Made by a program: the position numbers and the translations under genes
From: Ereboglobus sp. PH5-10
Lineage (GTDB): Bacteria; Verrucomicrobiota; Verrucomicrobiia; Opitutales; Opitutaceae
DNA length: 64,000 nt
Reading direction: 5' to 3'
NCBI RefSeq assembly: GCF_029504735.1
Contig: NZ_JAQFIP010000011.1
Location: forward strand, 1-64,000
The notes under the pieces: model-generated
Database searches by the model: none
Seen by the model: the letters and a program-made list of their open reading frames with translations, nothing else
What the model was told of the DNA's origin: nothing
Shown here: positions 1 to 6,633 of the stretch, piece by piece
How positions within the stretch are numbered: the first letter of the stretch is position 1
Layout: each line of letters begins with the position of its first letter

Positions 1-240
1 AGCCGCTGGGCGCCCTACGGCAAGTTTGCGGCGGTCTCGGTGGAAAGCTCCGACGGCGAGATCACTGCGCACGGCAGAACATTTGAGGCCAACTACGACG
101 GCAAGCGAGTCGAGTTCGGCCTGGGCACGAGCTACCGCATCGACGCGATCAGCCAAGTTTACATCGACTACGAATATGCGAAGGCCCAGTTCTACGAACG
201 CCCCTGGTCCCTAAACCTCGGCTACCGCAGACTCTGGTAA
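1..240 (+). CDS. Autotransporter beta-barrel domain, C-terminal end (5' partial)
   Basis: Frame 1 is open from the window edge and gives the last 79 residues of a protein. Alternating hydrophobic and polar residues form short strands (for example SQVYIDYEYAKA), and the protein ends LNLGYRRLW with a terminal aromatic residue. That is the usual end of an outer-membrane barrel recognised by the BAM machinery and fits the autotransporter beta-domain family. The passenger domain lies outside the window, so the cargo is unknown. A perfect 12-bp hairpin follows two bases after the stop. The next gene, trpB, converges on it from the other strand. Confidence 0.7.
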   Translation, partial: SRWAPYGKFAAVSVESSDGEITAHGRTFEANYDGKRVEFGLGTSYRIDAISQVYIDYEYAKAQFYERPWSLNLGYRRLW

Positions 241-241
241 C

Positions 242-268
242 GTGGAAGCGGCGTCCCGCCGCTTCCAC
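242..268. terminator. 12-bp perfect hairpin between convergent genes
   Basis: Bases 242-253 are the exact reverse complement of 257-268, with a 3-base loop. It lies directly after the stop of the barrel gene and about 85 bases past the trpB stop on the other strand. There is no long T run, so it may be a weak bidirectional terminator or a dispersed palindrome. Confidence 0.45.
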
Positions 269-288
269 CTTGCCGTCCGAACCGCCCC

Positions 289-314
289 GACTCACCGGGA
301 CGGTTCGCCCTGCC
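289..314 (-). repeat. Single arm of the GGCAGGGCGAA dispersed repeat
   Basis: On the minus strand this reads GGCAGGGCGAACCGTCCC followed by GGTGAGTC. It closely matches copies at 23975-24000, 26034-26059 and, in part, 28301-28320. It is intergenic here. Confidence 0.6.
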
Positions 315-351
315 GTGAAAGGCCCGAAAGCATAAGGAAGTTGAAGCCAGC

Positions 352-1599
352 TCAGTATTCCTTGTCCGCGTAGTCGCCGTATTTTTCCATGACGAAGTCG
401 ATGTCCTTGTCGCCGCGTCCGCTCAGGTTGACGAGAATGTCCTCCTGCGGGCGCTCCTTGGCGAGCTTCACGGCGTAGGCGACGGCGTGCGCGCTTTCGA
501 GCGCGGGAATGATGCCCTCGAGTCGTGAGAGTTGGAAAAACGCATGGATGGCCTCCGCATCCGTGGCGGTCACGGTCTTGGTGCGTCCGATGGATTTTAA
601 GTAGGCGTGCTCGGGGCCGCTCGACGGATAATCGAGTCCGCTGGCGACGGAATACACGGGCGCGGGCTCGCCTTTTTCGTCGGTGAGCATGATCGAGTTG
701 AAGCCGTGCATGATGCCCTCCTTGCCGTAGGTGAGCGAGGCGGCGTGGTCGCCGAGTTTCGCGCCGCGTCCGAGCGGTTCGACGCCGTGGAGTTCGACGG
801 GGTCGTCGAGGAAGCCGGAGAAAATGCCCATCGCGTTGGAGCCGCCGCCGACGCAGGCGACGACGTTGTTGGGCAGCTCGCCGGTCATCTCGATGAACTG
901 CTCGCGCGCCTCGATGCCGACGACGCGCTGAAACTCGCGCACCATGAGGGGGAAGGGGTGCGGCCCCATGACCGAGCCTATGCAATAGATGCTGTTGACG
1001 GGGTCGCTCAGGTAGGCGTCGAACGCGGAATCGACGGCCTCCTTGAGCGTGCGGTTGCCGAAGGTGACGGGCACGACCTTGGCTCCGAGGATTTTCATGC
1101 GCACGACATTCGGATGCTCCTTGGCAATGTCGACTTCGCCCATGTGGATTTCGACGGGGATTCCGAAATACGCGCCCGCCGTGGCGAGGGCGACGCCGTG
1201 CTGGCCCGCGCCGGTTTCGGCGATGAGTTTTTTCTTGCCGAGGTATTTGGCTAGAAGCGCCTCGCCCATGCAGTGGTTGAGCTTGTGCGCGCCGGAGTGG
1301 TTGAGGTCCTCGCGCTTGAGGTAGATGCGCCCGCCGCCGACCTTGTCGCTGAGGTTTTTGCAATAATAGACCGGCGTGGGGCGGCCTTGGAAGTGTTTGC
1401 GGATGCTTCGCAGTTCGCGGATGAAATCGTGGCTTCGGCAGATGTGCTGGTAGCCGCGATAGATTTCGTCCATTTGCTTTTGGAGTTCGGGCGGGACGAA
1501 CGAGCCGCCGAACTTGCCGAAGAAGCCGCGCTCGTCGGGCACCTGCAGGTGCATCGGGAGTTTGGGACGTGTGTATTGCGTGGATGTCTGTGTGTTCAT
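352..1599 (-). CDS. trpB: Tryptophan synthase beta chain
   Basis: 415 residues, normal length for TrpB. TrpB condenses indole with L-serine to give L-tryptophan, using PLP. The PLP lysine lies in the conserved [15 protein letters not shown] stretch near residue 100, and the glycine-rich phosphate-binding loop GGGSNAMG is present near residue 245. The N-terminus ([19 protein letters not shown]) is the classical TrpB start, which supports the ATG at 1599. No trpA or other trp gene is adjacent in the window. It is preceded by a 21-codon reading frame with two Trp codons and a terminator hairpin, so attenuation by tryptophan is likely. No Shine-Dalgarno sequence is seen before the start. Confidence 0.97.
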
Positions 1600-1662
1600 G
1601 TGTGTGTTTGTTTTCTGTTGTTTGGTTTTGTTGAAACTGAAGCGCCGTGATTAGCCGGATGG

Positions 1663-1697
1663 AAAAAATAAAAAACCTGCCGGATAATGACGGCAGG
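1663..1697 (-). terminator. Intrinsic terminator of a trp attenuator upstream of trpB
   Basis: On the minus strand CCTGCCG (1697-1691) pairs with CGGCAGG (1682-1676) around an 8-base loop, followed directly by TTTTTTATTTTTT. It ends about 65 bases before the trpB start, so it would stop transcription before the gene. The segment 1692-1686 (CGTCATT), covering the end of the left arm and most of the loop, is exactly complementary to AATGACG at 1754-1748, which overlaps the leader-peptide stop codon. Pairing of those two would preclude the terminator. Confidence 0.8.
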
Positions 1698-1749
1698 CTT
1701 CATGTTTAAATGGAATCGGTGCGTTGATATTACAGTGCGTAAGCGTGCG

Positions 1750-1812
1750 TCATTGTCTCGTTGAGGAGCAACGCCAGCGCCAAGTATTGTTGATGTTTTT
1801 GTTCAAACGCAT
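1750..1812 (-). CDS. trpL: trp leader peptide (two Trp codons)
   Basis: A 20-residue reading frame, ATG at 1812 and TGA at 1750-1752, encodes MRLNKNINNTWRWRCSSTRQ. The Trp codons are codons 11 and 13 (1782-1780 and 1776-1774). Size, the closely spaced Trp codons and the position about 150 bases before trpB match classical trp leader peptides. A ribosome that finishes translation would cover the antiterminator strand AATGACG, which contains the stop codon. A ribosome stalled at the Trp codons would leave it free. No Shine-Dalgarno sequence is seen, but that is also true of most genes here. The function is inferred from architecture only. Confidence 0.7.
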   Translation of the reverse strand: MRLNKNINNTWRWRCSSTRQ

Positions 1813-1835
1813 GTCTGAAAATTGAAGTTGCGCGG

Positions 1836-1865
1836 AAAATGCGCGGTGAGGGTTTGGGGAGTCAA
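1836..1865 (-). promoter_or_regulatory. Candidate promoter for the trp leader transcript
   Basis: On the minus strand a TTGACT -35 box lies at 1865-1860 and a weak CATTTT -10 candidate 18 bases further on, about 25-30 bases before the leader ATG. The -35 is good and the -10 is poor. Confidence 0.3.
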
Positions 1866-1905
1866 GGGAAAATATTTTTGGGCAAAGGGCGCTTGTGTCG
1901 CTCCA

Positions 1906-2421
1906 TCAGCGGCGCGGTTTCTTTCCCCTGAAAACTCCGCGCGCGTGCCAGAGGATCAGGAGCGCGTTGGTCGCGACCATTGGCCACGCGCGCGGGGTCG
2001 CGCCCGAAATTATCGCGACCGCAATTATCCACGCATGGATGCCGAGCGCGATTGCCGAGACGCAATAATCCGCCCGTCGCGCCGCCTGTTCGCGCCATTG
2101 AATATATGCCACGGCGCACCAGACGGCGAGCGCCACGACCGCGCCGGCCCGGCAGAATTGCGAGGCGCGCGCGATTTTTTCCTGATGCTCCAGCAGGAGC
2201 GTCAGCAGCCAGAACAGCAGTTGGTTGAAATAAAGAAAGCCGGTCACGAGCGCCGATATCAGGTGCGCGTTCACGGGGAACTGGCCTTTCTCATCGACCG
2301 GCACGCGCGAGAGCAGGGCGCAGCCGGCGCAGCAGAAATGGGTCGCCGGGGATGTCTCGTTCGCCGCGCTCGCGGCTGTCCTGAACGGGGTGCCGCAGCG
2401 GCTGCATGTTACGTTTTGCAT
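1906..2421 (-). CDS. Zinc-ribbon-like membrane protein of unknown function
   Basis: 171 residues. The N-terminus carries two cysteine pairs, CSRCG near residues 6-10 and FCCAGC near residues 29-34. This pattern resembles the metal-binding domain found at the N-terminus of some heavy-metal P-type ATPases. The rest contains four hydrophobic stretches (about 55-75, 90-107, 121-140 and 145-160), so it is probably a small inner-membrane protein with a cytoplasmic metal-binding head. There is no ATPase domain. It lies between the trp leader and the DUF2017-like/clpS pair, all on the minus strand. I do not recognise a named function. Confidence 0.6.
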   Translation of the reverse strand: MQNVTCSRCGTPFRTAASAANETSPATHFCCAGCALLSRVPVDEKGQFPVNAHLISALVTGFLYFNQLLFWLLTLLLEHQEKIARASQFCRAGAVVALAVWCAVAYIQWREQAARRADYCVSAIALGIHAWIIAVAIISGATPRAWPMVATNALLILWHARGVFRGKKPRR

Positions 2422-2462
2422 GGTTGGGTCGTTCTTTGTTGGAAAAGAGGGGGGGAGTTTTT

Positions 2463-2915
2463 TCAGGGTTCAACGTGCCGGATTATCAATTCCTGCAGGG
2501 TGGCCAAAAACATGTAGGCCATGAGGGCGCGGCGCGTGTCGGGTTGCAGCGCGTCGAAATCGCCGATGCCCTGCTCCAATGTTTCGTCGGGGATGTCCGC
2601 AAGCTGGCGCAGGCGCATTTGCAGGCGCAGCGCGGTGCAGGCGCGGATTATTTGCATGCTTTCGTCGGTATTGATCGTGACGGTGCCTGTTTCAAAAAAC
2701 TCGCCGTCGAATAGCGCGAGCAGCACGCCGACACTCTCGTTTTGCGTGGAGAGGAGCGAGTTCCGCCACATTTCGTCCATTTCGGCATCGTCGCCGTTTG
2801 CGGGCGGATGCAGTTGCACGGCGAGTTGGGTCTTGAGTTCGTTCGCGGTGGCATTGAGCAAGTCCATCAGCGGCGCGACGATTTTCAGGCTGAGCGTGAT
2901 CTCGATTCGGCTCAT
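2463..2915 (-). CDS. DUF2017-like protein, coupled to clpS
   Basis: 150 residues starting MSRIEITLSL; its ATG overlaps the clpS stop as ATGA, so translation is coupled. It appears all-helical and ends with a helix pair containing TALRLQMRLR and LATLQELIIRH. This order and the position directly after clpS recall the DUF2017 family, known mainly from Actinobacteria, where it also follows clpS. The family has no established function; the linkage suggests a role with the ClpS/Clp protease adaptor. The open frame extends upstream to 3305 but that part runs across clpS and is not used. Confidence 0.6.
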   Translation of the reverse strand: MSRIEITLSLKIVAPLMDLLNATANELKTQLAVQLHPPANGDDAEMDEMWRNSLLSTQNESVGVLLALFDGEFFETGTVTINTDESMQIIRACTALRLQMRLRQLADIPDETLEQGIGDFDALQPDTRRALMAYMFLATLQELIIRHVEP

Positions 2916-3205
2916 TTGTCGTCGGCCTCCAGGATCGCCCGCAGGTGCCATTCGTGAAGCGTGTAGGCGTAGGCCTCGGCTTTTTCCCTCAGGCCGCACC
3001 ACACGACGGATCGGCCCTGTTCGTGCACCTCGAGCATGTGCTTTTGCGCCGTTTGGTCGTCGAAGCCGAGAACCTTTTTGAAAACGAGCACCACGTATGA
3101 CATAAGGTTTACGGGATCGTTGAGCACCACCACGCGCCAGTCGCCGTCTTTTGCGAGCGCGACGTGGGTGTCTGTTTTCGGGACTGTGAGCGTTTGGGCC
3201 GCCAT
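2912..3205 (-). CDS. clpS: ATP-dependent Clp protease adaptor ClpS
   Basis: 97 residues. ClpS binds N-degron substrates and delivers them to the ClpA/ClpC unfoldase. The conserved Asn-Asp pair is in LNDPVNLMSYV (about residues 29-39), and the substrate-pocket His is in EVHEQGRSVV (about 61-70). The NDPVNLMSYV wording and the closing LHEWHL stretch resemble the actinobacterial ClpS type rather than the proteobacterial one. It is followed by a DUF2017-like gene with a 4-base overlap. Confidence 0.9.
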   Translation of the reverse strand: MAAQTLTVPKTDTHVALAKDGDWRVVVLNDPVNLMSYVVLVFKKVLGFDDQTAQKHMLEVHEQGRSVVWCGLREKAEAYAYTLHEWHLRAILEADDK

Positions 3206-3320
3206 GATTGCATTTCATGCAAACTCGCGCATTATTACAGCGCAACATCGCACTTGTCAGCCGCGCGCAAATAAAGCGGAAATGAGTGCCGCACCACGCG
3301 CACAACCCTCTTCTTCAACC

Positions 3321-5507
3321 ATGACATCCACCCAACGCACAACCCACCGCTGGAAATTCGCCCGCATCGGCGGACTCGACCAAGTCATCCTCGAGACAGC
3401 CGATGATCTGCTCAACCTAGGCCAACTCGACCAGAAACTCTGGGTCGCGTTGAGCTGTCCGGTGAAAAGCCTCGAATATGACGAGGACACGCTGAAGCTG
3501 CTCGACACCGACAACGACGGACGCATCCGCGTTGACGAGATCACCGGCGCGATCAAATGGCTTTCCACGCGCCTCGCCGACGTGGGCGTCATCCTCAACC
3601 CGCAGCCGCAGTTGCCCCCCGATGCGATCAACGCCGGCACGCCCGAGGGCGCGCTGCTGCTCTCCACTGCAAATCTCCTCATCAGCGAGGGCAAAACCGG
3701 GCTCAGCGTCGCGGGCATCGCCGAAACGCGAAAGCAATTTCTCGACGGCCGTTTTAACGGCGACGGCGTCATTTCCGCCGACACCACGGACACGCCCGAG
3801 CTCAAGCAGCTCGTCGAAAACATCATCGCCACTCAAGGCGCCGCGCAGGATCTCAGCGGCAAGCCCGGCGTGACGCAGGAAAAAATCGACGCGTTTTACG
3901 ACGCGGTCGCCGCGCACATCGCGCGCAACGCCGAGGCCGCGGCGACGCAGGTTTTCGTTTTCGGCAAAACCACGCCCGCGGCCCACGCCGCGTTCAAGGC
4001 GGTGCGCGAGAAAATCGACGACTACTTCGAGCGCTGTCGCCTGGCCTCGTTTGATCCGCGCACGCTCGCCGCGCTCAACCGCCCCGAGTCCGACTACGCC
4101 GCGATCATCGCGCGCGACCTCAAGCCGGGCGATTCCGACCTGGCCGGGTTTCCCCTCGCAAAAATCACGCCCGACAAGCCGCTGTCGCTCGCCGCCGGCA
4201 TCAATCCCGCGTGGACGGCCGCCGTTGGGGCATTTCTCTCCGACACGATGCCGGTCGCGTTCAACGCGGGCAAAGCCGACATCACCGCCGCCGAGTGGGC
4301 GTCGCTGAAAACGAAGTTCGGGCCCTACGAAAACTGGCTCGCGGCAAACGCCGGCTCGCCGATCACCGCGCTCGGCGATGCGCGCATCGAGGAAATCCAC
4401 GCGACCTCCGCCGCCGACCGCGACGCGCTCGGCAAACTCGTCGCGCAAGACAAGGCGCTCGAATCCGAATCGCTCGCGCTCAACGACATCAACCGGCTCG
4501 TGCGCTACTACAGCCAGCTCGGCGTGCTGTTGCGCAACTTCGTGAACTTCGCCGATTTTTATTCGCTGAAACACTCGGCGATCTTTCAGGCGGGCGTGCT
4601 TTACCTCGACAGCCGCAGTTGCGAACTGTGCATCCGCGTCGATGATCCCGCGGCGCATTCCGTGCTCGCCGCGCTCAGCCGCGCGTGCATCGCCTACTGC
4701 GAACTCAAGCGCGCGGGCGAGGCGCCGTTGAAAATCGCGGCCTGTTTCACCCAGGGCGACTCCGACTATCTGATGGTGGGGCGCAACGGCGTTTTCTACG
4801 ACATGAAGGGGCGCGACTGGGACGCGACGATCACCAAGCTCGTTTCGAACCCGATCAGCGTGCGCGAGGCGTTTTGGTCGCCCTATAAAAAACTCATCCG
4901 CACAATCGAGGAACATCTCGCCAAACGCGGCGCCGCTGCCGAGGCCGCCACCGGCGCCAAGCTCGACAAGGTTGCGGAAAACACCGCCAATGCCGACAAG
5001 CTCGCCGCCGCGTCCGCGTCCGCGACACCCGAGGCGCCGAAAAAAATCGACGTCGGCACTGTGGCCGCGATTGGCGTGGCCGCAGGCGCGCTCACCGGCG
5101 CGATTGCCGCGATCGCAACCGGAATCGCCCGTCTCGCGCCCTGGCAAATCCTCCTCATTCCGGTGGCGTTGTTGCTGATCATTTCCGGCCCGTCGATGTT
5201 CATTGCCTGGTTGAAACTCCGCCAGCGCACACTCGGGCCGATTCTTGACGCGGCGGGATGGGCGGTCAACGGACGCGTAAAAATCAATGTCCCGCTCGGC
5301 ACCTCGCTCACGGACATCGCCACGCTTCCTGACGGCTCGCAGCGCACGCTTCGCGATCCCTACGAGGACAAGGCGGCCAAGCGCCGCAAGCGCCGCATCG
5401 TGCTGGTCCTGGTTCTCGCCGCGCTCGCGGCCTTCGGCGCATGGGCGTGGATCGATCACATCGAGACGAACACATGGATTTGGGACCGGCTGTTGTCGTC
5501 GAAATAA
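3321..5507 (+). CDS. EF-hand-containing membrane protein of unknown function
   Basis: 728 residues from the ATG at 3321; an alternative ATG at 3282 adds 13 residues and neither has a clear ribosome-binding site. A canonical EF-hand loop DTDNDGRIRVDE lies at about residues 62-73, and a second, degenerate one (NGDGVIS) at about 145-155, suggesting calcium-dependent folding or regulation. A long helical middle region follows. Near the C-terminus there are three hydrophobic segments, one alanine/glycine-rich (about 577-600), one at about 610-635, and a final one (VLVLVLAALAAFGAWAW) close to the end. The bulk is probably on one side of the inner membrane. I know no characterised homologue. A long opposing reading frame over this gene is a codon-bias shadow. 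Confidence 0.75.
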   Translation: MTSTQRTTHRWKFARIGGLDQVILETADDLLNLGQLDQKLWVALSCPVKSLEYDEDTLKLLDTDNDGRIRVDEITGAIKWLSTRLADVGVILNPQPQLPPDAINAGTPEGALLLSTANLLISEGKTGLSVAGIAETRKQFLDGRFNGDGVISADTTDTPELKQLVENIIATQGAAQDLSGKPGVTQEKIDAFYDAVAAHIARNAEAAATQVFVFGKTTPAAHAAFKAVREKIDDYFERCRLASFDPRTLAALNRPESDYAAIIARDLKPGDSDLAGFPLAKITPDKPLSLAAGINPAWTAAVGAFLSDTMPVAFNAGKADITAAEWASLKTKFGPYENWLAANAGSPITALGDARIEEIHATSAADRDALGKLVAQDKALESESLALNDINRLVRYYSQLGVLLRNFVNFADFYSLKHSAIFQAGVLYLDSRSCELCIRVDDPAAHSVLAALSRACIAYCELKRAGEAPLKIAACFTQGDSDYLMVGRNGVFYDMKGRDWDATITKLVSNPISVREAFWSPYKKLIRTIEEHLAKRGAAAEAATGAKLDKVAENTANADKLAAASASATPEAPKKIDVGTVAAIGVAAGALTGAIAAIATGIARLAPWQILLIPVALLLIISGPSMFIAWLKLRQRTLGPILDAAGWAVNGRVKINVPLGTSLTDIATLPDGSQRTLRDPYEDKAAKRRKRRIVLVLVLAALAAFGAWAWIDHIETNTWIWDRLLSSK

Positions 5508-5559
5508 TCAAACGCGAAGGACGGCGCGGATTTTTTGCCGCGCCGTTTTCAATTTCCAA

Positions 5560-6633
5560 GTGAAGACCCCGGACCTGCTCAATATACGTTTATACAATCA
5601 ATTGCTCTCCGGCCATGAGTTGAAGCAGCCGCGAGAGGTCGTGTCCCGGATGGGCGCGATGCAGTCGCAGTCGCTGGATTTGGCGAAGTGGGCGATCGGA
5701 ACGCGTCTCGAATCAAAGACGGTTGCGGATGTCGAGAAGGCCTTGAACACGGGGAAAATCATTCGCACGCACATTCTGCGCCCGACGTGGCATTTTGTGG
5801 CGGCGGATGACATTCATTGGATGCGCGAACTTTCGAACCCGCAAATAAAGCCGATTTATCTCTCCTATTGCCGGATGTGCGGCGCGGACGAGGCGGTCAT
5901 AGCGCGCGCCGTTCCCATTGTGGAGAAATCCCTGTCCAATGGCGGGCATTTGGAGAAGCAGGAAATCGGGGAGGCCCTGAAGGCGCGAAGAATAAAGGCG
6001 GATGCCACCTTGCTGAATCTTATTATACAACGCGCCGAGATGGAGGGGATTCTTTGCAACGGGAAAATACAGGGTAATAAACAAACCTATGCTTTGCTAA
6101 ACGAATGGGTTCCCCGGAAACGAAACCAAACAATAAGCCGGGAGGCTGCGTTGGAACGCCTGGCGCGGAGGTATTTCACGAGCCACGGACCGGCGACGCT
6201 TCTTGATTTTGAGTGGTGGTCGGGCTTGTCGCTCACCGATAGCAGGCGCGCTGTCGAGATGATCAAAAACGATTTTGTATGCGAAAAGGCAAGCGGGCGC
6301 GAGTTCTGGATGCGAAATGACATTAAGACTCCGCCGAAAGGAAGCGCGTCGGCATTGCTGCTTCCGCCGTTCGACGAATTTGTGGTGAGCTACAAGGACC
6401 GTTCCGAGATGATTCACGATGCTCATTATGGAAAGGTGATGACGAGGAACGGCCTCTTTTCCCCGACCGTGATGCTCAATGGCGAAATTGTCGGCTCATG
6501 GAAAAAGACGAGCAGGAAAGGAGCTGTCCGAATAGAACTCTCCTTTTTCGAAAAAACGTCCAAGCGAAAACAACAGCTTTTCGAGCCGGAGATAAGGCGG
6601 TTGGAGAAGTTTTATTCGGACAGGGATGAATAG
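5560..6633 (+). CDS. Winged-helix DNA-binding domain protein (HTH_42 / AlkZ-YcaQ-like)
   Basis: 357 residues from a GTG start at 5560, chosen because the family begins with a leucine-rich first helix that matches DLLNIRLYNQLL. Typical family motifs are VSRMGAMQSQSLDLAKWAIG (about 25-44), HILRPTWHFV (about 70-80) and LLPPFDEFVVSYKDRS (about 265-280). Members of this superfamily include DNA glycosylases that unhook interstrand crosslinks (AlkZ, YcaQ), but many are uncharacterised. I cannot assign the catalytic residues with certainty. It lies 52 bases after the EF-hand gene and is followed by a repeat-bearing intergenic region. Confidence 0.8.
   Translation: MKTPDLLNIRLYNQLLSGHELKQPREVVSRMGAMQSQSLDLAKWAIGTRLESKTVADVEKALNTGKIIRTHILRPTWHFVAADDIHWMRELSNPQIKPIYLSYCRMCGADEAVIARAVPIVEKSLSNGGHLEKQEIGEALKARRIKADATLLNLIIQRAEMEGILCNGKIQGNKQTYALLNEWVPRKRNQTISREAALERLARRYFTSHGPATLLDFEWWSGLSLTDSRRAVEMIKNDFVCEKASGREFWMRNDIKTPPKGSASALLLPPFDEFVVSYKDRSEMIHDAHYGKVMTRNGLFSPTVMLNGEIVGSWKKTSRKGAVRIELSFFEKTSKRKQQLFEPEIRRLEKFYSDRDE

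Follow-up and report, generated by a model that had tools for sequence, protein, structure and literature searches.

Architecture of the trpB leader region

The 64,000-nucleotide stretch of DNA analysed here, which we call the window, carries on its minus strand (352..1599) a gene for a tryptophan synthase beta subunit of 415 aa, recognised by TIGR00263 with 506.4 bits against a cut-off of 392.45. We refer to this gene as the lone trpB and to its product as TrpBx. The same genome (G000) has another, canonical trpB within a trpE-G-D-C-F-B-A operon on another contig, and the two products share 51% identity. The gene names of this operon were checked with family models, TrpE scoring just under its cut-off (515.0 vs. 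517.7).

Upstream of the lone trpB and on the same strand, a 20-codon open reading frame with its stop codon (1812-1750) encodes the peptide MRLNKNINNTWRWRCSSTRQ, which has Trp at codons 11 (1782-1780) and 13 (1776-1774). The UGA stop (1752-1750) lies within the heptamer AATGACG (1754-1748). A preliminary description of this DNA had pointed out both the 20-residue frame with its two Trp codons and the position of the stop, and both are found exactly there. No Shine-Dalgarno sequence was seen before the leader ORF in the window sequence. A possible hairpin at 1802..1819 (minus strand, TTCAGAC-ATGC-GTTTGAA) would place the start codon of the leader within a loop of 4 nt. Among the relatives of the window locus (L001) in its genus, designated L003, L004 and L005, this hairpin is kept in L005 with a one-sided change and has at least one broken pair in L004; it is present in 10 folds. 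Further upstream on the minus strand lie a putative -35 element, TTGACT (1860..1865), and a putative -10 element, CATTTT (1836..1841; TATTTT in L005), with an 18-nt spacer in all four genus members. The -35 element is identical in 4/4, in flanks that have otherwise diverged; the -10 element is a weak match to the sigma-70 consensus and was not returned by the sequence scan. We infer that the pair is the promoter of the leader.

Downstream of the leader ORF, an intrinsic terminator (1701-1670, minus strand) consists of an 11-bp stem whose foot includes G-U and A-U pairs, an 8-nt loop and a T tract. The preliminary description had placed a terminator with a T tract just before trpB; presence and position stood, whereas the stem proved to be 11 bp instead of 7 bp. 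Two segments can form an alternative structure: region 2, AATGACGCACGCTT (1741..1754, minus strand), which contains the leader stop and forms the 5' side of an antiterminator, and region 3, AAGCCTGCCGTCATT (1686..1700, minus strand), which forms the 3' side and comprises the 5' arm of the terminator minus its outermost G, plus the loop. In the window the antiterminator has 13 bp (AATGACG-CA-C-GCTT with AAGC-C-TG-C-CGTCATT): AATGACG:CGTCATT is followed by CA:TG across a bulged C, a C-C mismatch and GCTT:AAGC at the foot of the arm. The exact complementarity of the heptamer to CGTCATT (1692-1686) had been recognised before, and the pairing turned out to be longer than described. This extent matters because 7 bp with the tip and loop alone would leave most of the stem able to pair.

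Conservation within the genus

The four genus members encode the leader peptides MRLNKNINNTWRWRCSSTRQ (twice), MRLPKNINNTWRRPCLTSEQ and MRLTKNINNTWRWRCFTSKQ, with the leader ORF kept in all. Codons 1-12 differ synonymously only, except for codon 4, and the amino-acid changes beyond codon 12 fall at positions 13, 14 and 16-19. Codon 13 is Arg in L004, whose leader has a single Trp codon. The preliminary description had staked its reading on close relatives conserving the leader Trp codons and the antiterminator pairing, and both are retained: Trp11 in 4/4, Trp13 in 3/4, and 94.2% of antiterminator cells paired in register, as opposed to 9.6-46.2% when the strands are slid by 1-3 columns. Region 2 contains ACAATGACGCRCGCTY in 4/4, and the loop part of CGTCATT is invariant in all four. 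The antiterminator has 12 bp in the three relatives, the foot pair being lost in 3/4 sequences.

The terminator is 100% paired in the four sequences; three of its pairs vary, each on one side only and with pairing intact, and in the antiterminator one pair varies, again on one side. The covarying arms that the preliminary description had suggested looking for in relatives did not appear: no pair in either structure is altered on both sides among the four sequences, so covariation is neutral, speaking neither for nor against the pairing. The window antiterminator duplex has an energy of -17.4 kcal/mol vs. a shuffle mean of -7.77, and 1/2000 dinucleotide shuffles equalled it; the corresponding counts were 1/2000 for L003, 22/2000 for L004 and 14/2000 for L005. 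When only the RNA 3' of the last Trp codon was used, shuffles as good numbered 0 (L001), 14 (L003), 60 (L004) and 1 (L005) per 1000; limiting the test in this way weakens the support for the pairing.

Folding of the leader transcript

We folded the transcript as far as the loop of the terminator, masking the ribosome footprint, and scored the mean antiterminator pair probability. With a ribosome at Trp11 or Trp13 this probability was 0.93, with a ribosome at the leader stop it was 0.0, and in the ribosome-free transcript it was 0.74. In these models of the incomplete transcript, ribosome position decides which structure is formed. The complete transcript folded at equilibrium as terminator in every ribosome state (0.95-0.96), so the switch must be kinetic, as is usual for switches of the attenuator type. 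In E. coli the trp leader has a protecting 1:2 hairpin. A 1:2-like stem appears in one window fold, yet the ribosome-free incomplete transcript still reaches 0.74 antiterminator, which makes such a protector doubtful and probably weak or missing here; an untranslated leader might read through.

The proposed mechanism would run as follows. Transcription would start roughly 15-25 nt upstream of the leader. When charged tRNA-Trp is scarce, the ribosome would stall at Trp11/Trp13 and leave 1754-1741 exposed; this segment would pair with 1700-1686, block the terminator and allow trpB to be transcribed. When Trp is plentiful, the ribosome would reach the UGA in region 2 and cover it, and the terminator would form. 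TrpBx would then make tryptophan from indole and serine independently of TrpA, so that Trp starvation would, through this switch, lead to indole salvage. The preliminary description had proposed the attenuation logic of enterobacterial trp operons, and the conserved anatomy and the masked folding support that proposal.

Distribution of the leader

A degenerate DNA pattern for the leader motif NINNTWR matched 4/250 genomes of the family, at one site each and all in genus members, and the reversed pattern used as control gave 0 matches in the same 250. The pattern is exact and lets differently worded leaders escape; the four matches are all the genus members drawn. By protein search, some trpB was found in 145/150 family genomes and an orthologue of the window gene in 24/150 (68-100% identity); in the genomes lacking an orthologue, the best trpB match was 9.5e-122 (49%) or weaker. 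The other 20 of the 24 family orthologues lack a two-Trp leader with terminator, and no Trp-holding ORF before a terminator occurs within 400 nt, in a terminator scan that admits loops of up to 10 nt and misses longer-looped hairpins such as that of L038. We rejected a family-wide attenuator, since 20/24 lone-trpB orthologues from the 150 family genomes lack it. At L038, a lone trpB of the Opitutales, the region from 210 to ~90 nt upstream holds GGAGG, a short Trp-free ORF (MKNNRTASVLILK) and a strong hairpin with a long loop and T following; this element is perhaps another kind of leader.

In the protein tree the genus forms one clade (support 0.966) adjoining leader-less genomes (0.711 for that grouping). 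This placement makes a gain of the leader on the branch to the genus the simplest reading, and most simply the leader would have been gained there, with loss elsewhere as the alternative. Searching with R1, a covariance model built from the leader, gave matches in 35 of 273 genomes of the order at E ≤0.01; only the window's own site was strong (185.5 bits), all others reaching at most 36.6 bits. G002, G051 and G080 do not appear among these matches, presumably because they lay outside the genome draw. The 36.6-bit match, in the window's genome, was rejected as a leader: it follows a dehydrogenase-like gene and is an ordinary terminator. Against 18 chosen sources R1 gave weak full-length matches to L062 (24.1 bits), L174 (19.9), L064 (18.8) and L075 (17.2), for which no homology is claimed because the other strand of L075 also scored 20.8 bits.

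A further Trp leader is predicted before the trpE-led operon of the window's genome: MSAQLHTTNRWWRRQVCR, with WW, lies at G000:C4:14290-14346 (L032 5291-5347) on the minus strand. A hairpin with a T tract follows it 3', before trpE, and the leader end GTCTGCCGG can pair with CCGGCGGAC in the 5' arm of this hairpin, a pairing not above GC-rich shuffles (145/1000 as good). The earlier statement that the attenuator acts on trpB alone rather than on a trpE-led operon is thus right for the gene and wrong for the genome. A W-W ORF, that is, a short ORF with two Trp codons, was present in 2/30 fetched trpE loci (61 genomes searched), those of the window's genome and L120, where the ORF has a GTG start and ends 288 nt before trpE. 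Upstream of the trpE of G051, no Trp leader was found when the sequence was read by eye.

Other lone-trpB loci

We compared 104 upstream regions of lone trpB genes (24 from the family plus the best 80 of 585 GTDB loci) with those of 459 other ORFs at the same loci, each 220 aa or longer; the latter are mechanical ORFs, some surely not genes. Short W-W ORFs occurred upstream in 15/104 lone-trpB regions vs. 35/459 control starts, and the combination of such an ORF with a terminator behind it in 7/104 vs. 0/459. L101, one of the seven, was rejected as an attenuator because it is really a T-box. The remaining 6/104 vs. 0/459 give a Fisher p of 3.5e-5 for loci that are not independent (three from the window's genus, two Ancylomarina and one other Bacteroidales). 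The filter demands two Trp codons and consequently missed L004. In the antiterminator test, shuffles as good numbered 67 (L062), 238 (L064), 27 (L075) and 435 (second leader of L174) per 1000; among these four and the trpE leader of the window's own genome, L075 alone falls below 5%.

We also searched 198 genomes of the order to which the Ancylomarina genome G253 belongs, and 13/30 fetched loci were of the lone type (69-100% identity). Two of these have a Trp leader and terminator, namely L174 and L162, the latter from the genome that also contains L064; in the other 11/13 no W-W ORF was found. The lone-type trpB of L174 is preceded by two Trp-leader ORFs in series, of which one reads MNTRKIYPVKAVTNFWWWHLFKRR and the other contains NMKNIWRWWHININ; behind each lies a terminator. 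The trpB genes of this order that we took as canonical (49-55% identity) have a W-W leader and terminator upstream in 9/17 fetched cases, which means that the window is not alone in having an attenuator in front of a trpB. The nine, with WW or WWW leaders, are L175, L177, L178, L179, L183, L186, L187, L188 and L190.

A T-box core was detected in 10/104 lone-trpB loci, all Clostridia. Before trpB, a candidate ATG ORF with KRWR/KRWW is found in 7/10 T-box loci and in L105, which lacks the core; examples are MLLTKRWRRSI and MFILSKRWWRLNSQDCII. At L071, L089, L096, L098, L100, L103 and L110 the T-box core is followed by a purine-rich site, the KRWR-type ORF and trpB, an arrangement that looks like a tandem T-box and Trp leader. 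At the Rfam gathering cut-off, 12 chosen loci, five of them carrying the core, yielded one T-box (RF00230, L083).

Alternative readings of the leader

The best explanation of these observations is a ribosome-mediated transcription attenuator controlling a lone extra trpB, to which we assign a probability of about 0.88. It builds on the anatomy, its conservation, the computed alternative pairing and the lack of TrpA, TrpC and TrpE matches in the sister species G002, with the second Trp leader at trpE of the window's genome as further support, and predicts a promoter, stalling, readthrough and salvage. Points against it are that no pair is altered on both sides, that L004 has a single Trp codon, that the leader start shows no Shine-Dalgarno sequence, that the ribosome-free fold is permissive and that G002 retains a TrpF-like gene. 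A leader of different logic, acting by translation coupling or as a trans-acting peptide with the antiterminator pairing incidental, could account for the conservation of MRLxKNINNTWR as amino acids, which attenuation alone does not need, and for the permissive ribosome-free fold; the trans role described for the Sinorhizobium meliloti Trp leader peptide offers a precedent (PMC7298713). Terminator and antiterminator are however both conserved, and 150 nt separate the leader stop from the trpB start, a long distance for direct coupling; we regard this explanation as very unlikely.

The hairpin might instead merely terminate transcription of the upstream gene, with the two-Trp ORF a product of chance. 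In the window and in L003 the upstream neighbour is indeed a same-strand, membrane-type ORF, ending in the window at 1906, ~200 nt before the hairpin; L005 likewise has a same-strand gene upstream, and the control starts show that short W-W ORFs are not rare. The L005 neighbour is nevertheless another gene, rimO-like by its protein sequence, and that of L004 (L157) is divergent and, again by its protein sequence, glutamate 5-kinase-like. Because the neighbour varies without loss of leader, region 2 or terminator, leader and terminator belong to trpB. The near-exclusively synonymous substitutions in codons 1-12 and the absence of a W-W ORF with terminator among the 459 controls also speak against chance, and the invariant loop part of CGTCATT would be dispensable for termination. 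We rejected the upstream-gene terminator, which the differing or divergent neighbours of the retained unit render highly improbable. The remotest of the alternatives is a switch with a different input, RNA or protein (a T-box, TRAP or a metabolite riboswitch): T-boxes do precede related lone trpB genes in Clostridia (core in 10/104; RF00230 in one of 12 scanned), but Rfam returned no family match in window 1-6000 at E ≤1 and the window is not among the 10 loci with a T-box core. Judged by sequence, ribosome-mediated Trp attenuation appears by far the best of the readings.

Role of the lone trpB

The sister species G002, assembled as one contig and 99% complete, keeps the lone trpB and the attenuator. 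Searches of G002 found no TrpA, no TrpC match and one trpB match only, with no canonical TrpB. Its best TrpE match merely reached 4.1e-27, the level of the second hit in G000 (1.2e-26), which is presumably pabB-like. A TrpF-like gene is retained. G002 is likely a Trp auxotroph able to use indole, and the persistence of trpB and attenuator where TrpA, TrpC, TrpE and canonical TrpB gave no match points to indole salvage. TrpBx most likely converts indole and serine to tryptophan without TrpA. We infer indole salvage as the role of the lone trpB, most strongly for G002.

TrpA is present in 21/24 family genomes with a lone trpB (absent from G002, G080, which is 65% complete, and G104, 91%), so a lone trpB does not by itself imply auxotrophy. 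Related trpB genes occur in several phyla, as seen in the best 80 of 585 GTDB loci. Within these 80, of which 62 have flanks of at least 1.5 kb on both sides, tblastn with the trp proteins of the window's genome placed TrpA near trpB once, at L101, whose lone trpB lies directly downstream of a complete trp operon that includes a trpB of its own; 10/15 tested genomes of this set hold TrpA somewhere. At L060 tblastn gave a TrpG match near the lone trpB, and L004 has a TrpC match downstream of its lone trpB with an opposite-strand ORF between.

Discussion

The type of attenuator described here is textbook; its target, a lone trpB probably salvaging indole, is unusual. We have here a compact, conserved and probable case of classical Trp attenuation, acting on a gene best understood if indole comes from outside the cell. 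In the open literature searched, no paper combined Verrucomicrobia, attenuation, leader peptide and tryptophan, and the lone-trpB attenuator arrangement was not named; most subscription journals lie outside such a search and an earlier description is possible. The sister species, which keeps gene and switch in the absence of TrpA, TrpC and TrpE matches, makes lone TrpB as starvation-induced indole salvage directly testable.

Tentatively, and at slightly less than even odds, the lone trpB could be a multi-phylum family for indole salvage that on several occasions came under Trp-specific RNA control through different devices. With the same reserve, the devices may be attenuators in this genus and a handful of Bacteroidota (L062, L064/L075 and two in series at L174), and a T-box followed by a conserved MxxLxKRWR-like leader ORF in Clostridia. 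If this is true, selection would keep the device and not the sequence: an indole-salvage starvation switch separate from the de novo operon.

Rfam includes a Trp operon leader family, of which the window leader is not a sequence member, given the lack of any Rfam match in window 1-6000 (E ≤1). In E. coli trpL, a stalled ribosome frees the antiterminator; if it does not stall, transcription meets a terminator ahead of the structural gene (PMC7755916). The window shares the short Trp-codon leader, antiterminator and terminator before a structural gene. Unlike trpL, the predicted window switch controls a lone trpB and not a trpE-led operon, its leader has WRW (or one W) instead of WW, and the 1:2 protector is probably weak or missing.

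The at operon of Bacillus subtilis has a Trp leader peptide besides its T-box. These two Trp-specific devices in tandem resemble the T-box and KRWR ORF of the Clostridia and differ from the window. The link of this operon (rtpA) to a T-box is described in PMC2494555 and PMC11255114, and in Dehalococcoides a trpB-like gene is placed under a Trp-related T-box (PMC2494555). By contrast, the window has no T-box by Rfam or core motif, and its sensor would be a translated leader. The plTrpB of Pelodictyon luteolum is of the TrpB1 type, is encoded apart from trpA and uses indole without TrpA (PMC11917138). The window trpB similarly stands apart from trpA, the activity being known for plTrpB and predicted for TrpBx; unlike plTrpB, for which the available text mentions no RNA control (PMC11917138), it has a putative one.

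Another related system is the trpRBA operon of Chlamydia trachomatis, where a TrpL is annotated upstream of trpBA (PMC7755916). This TrpL has 59 aa and no consecutive Trp codons, is not validated and is judged a poor attenuator, YtgR controlling the operon instead (PMC7755916). Both systems would place trpB under tryptophan control where the pathway is incomplete. In contrast to the Chlamydia TrpL, the window leader is compact and conserved across its genus.
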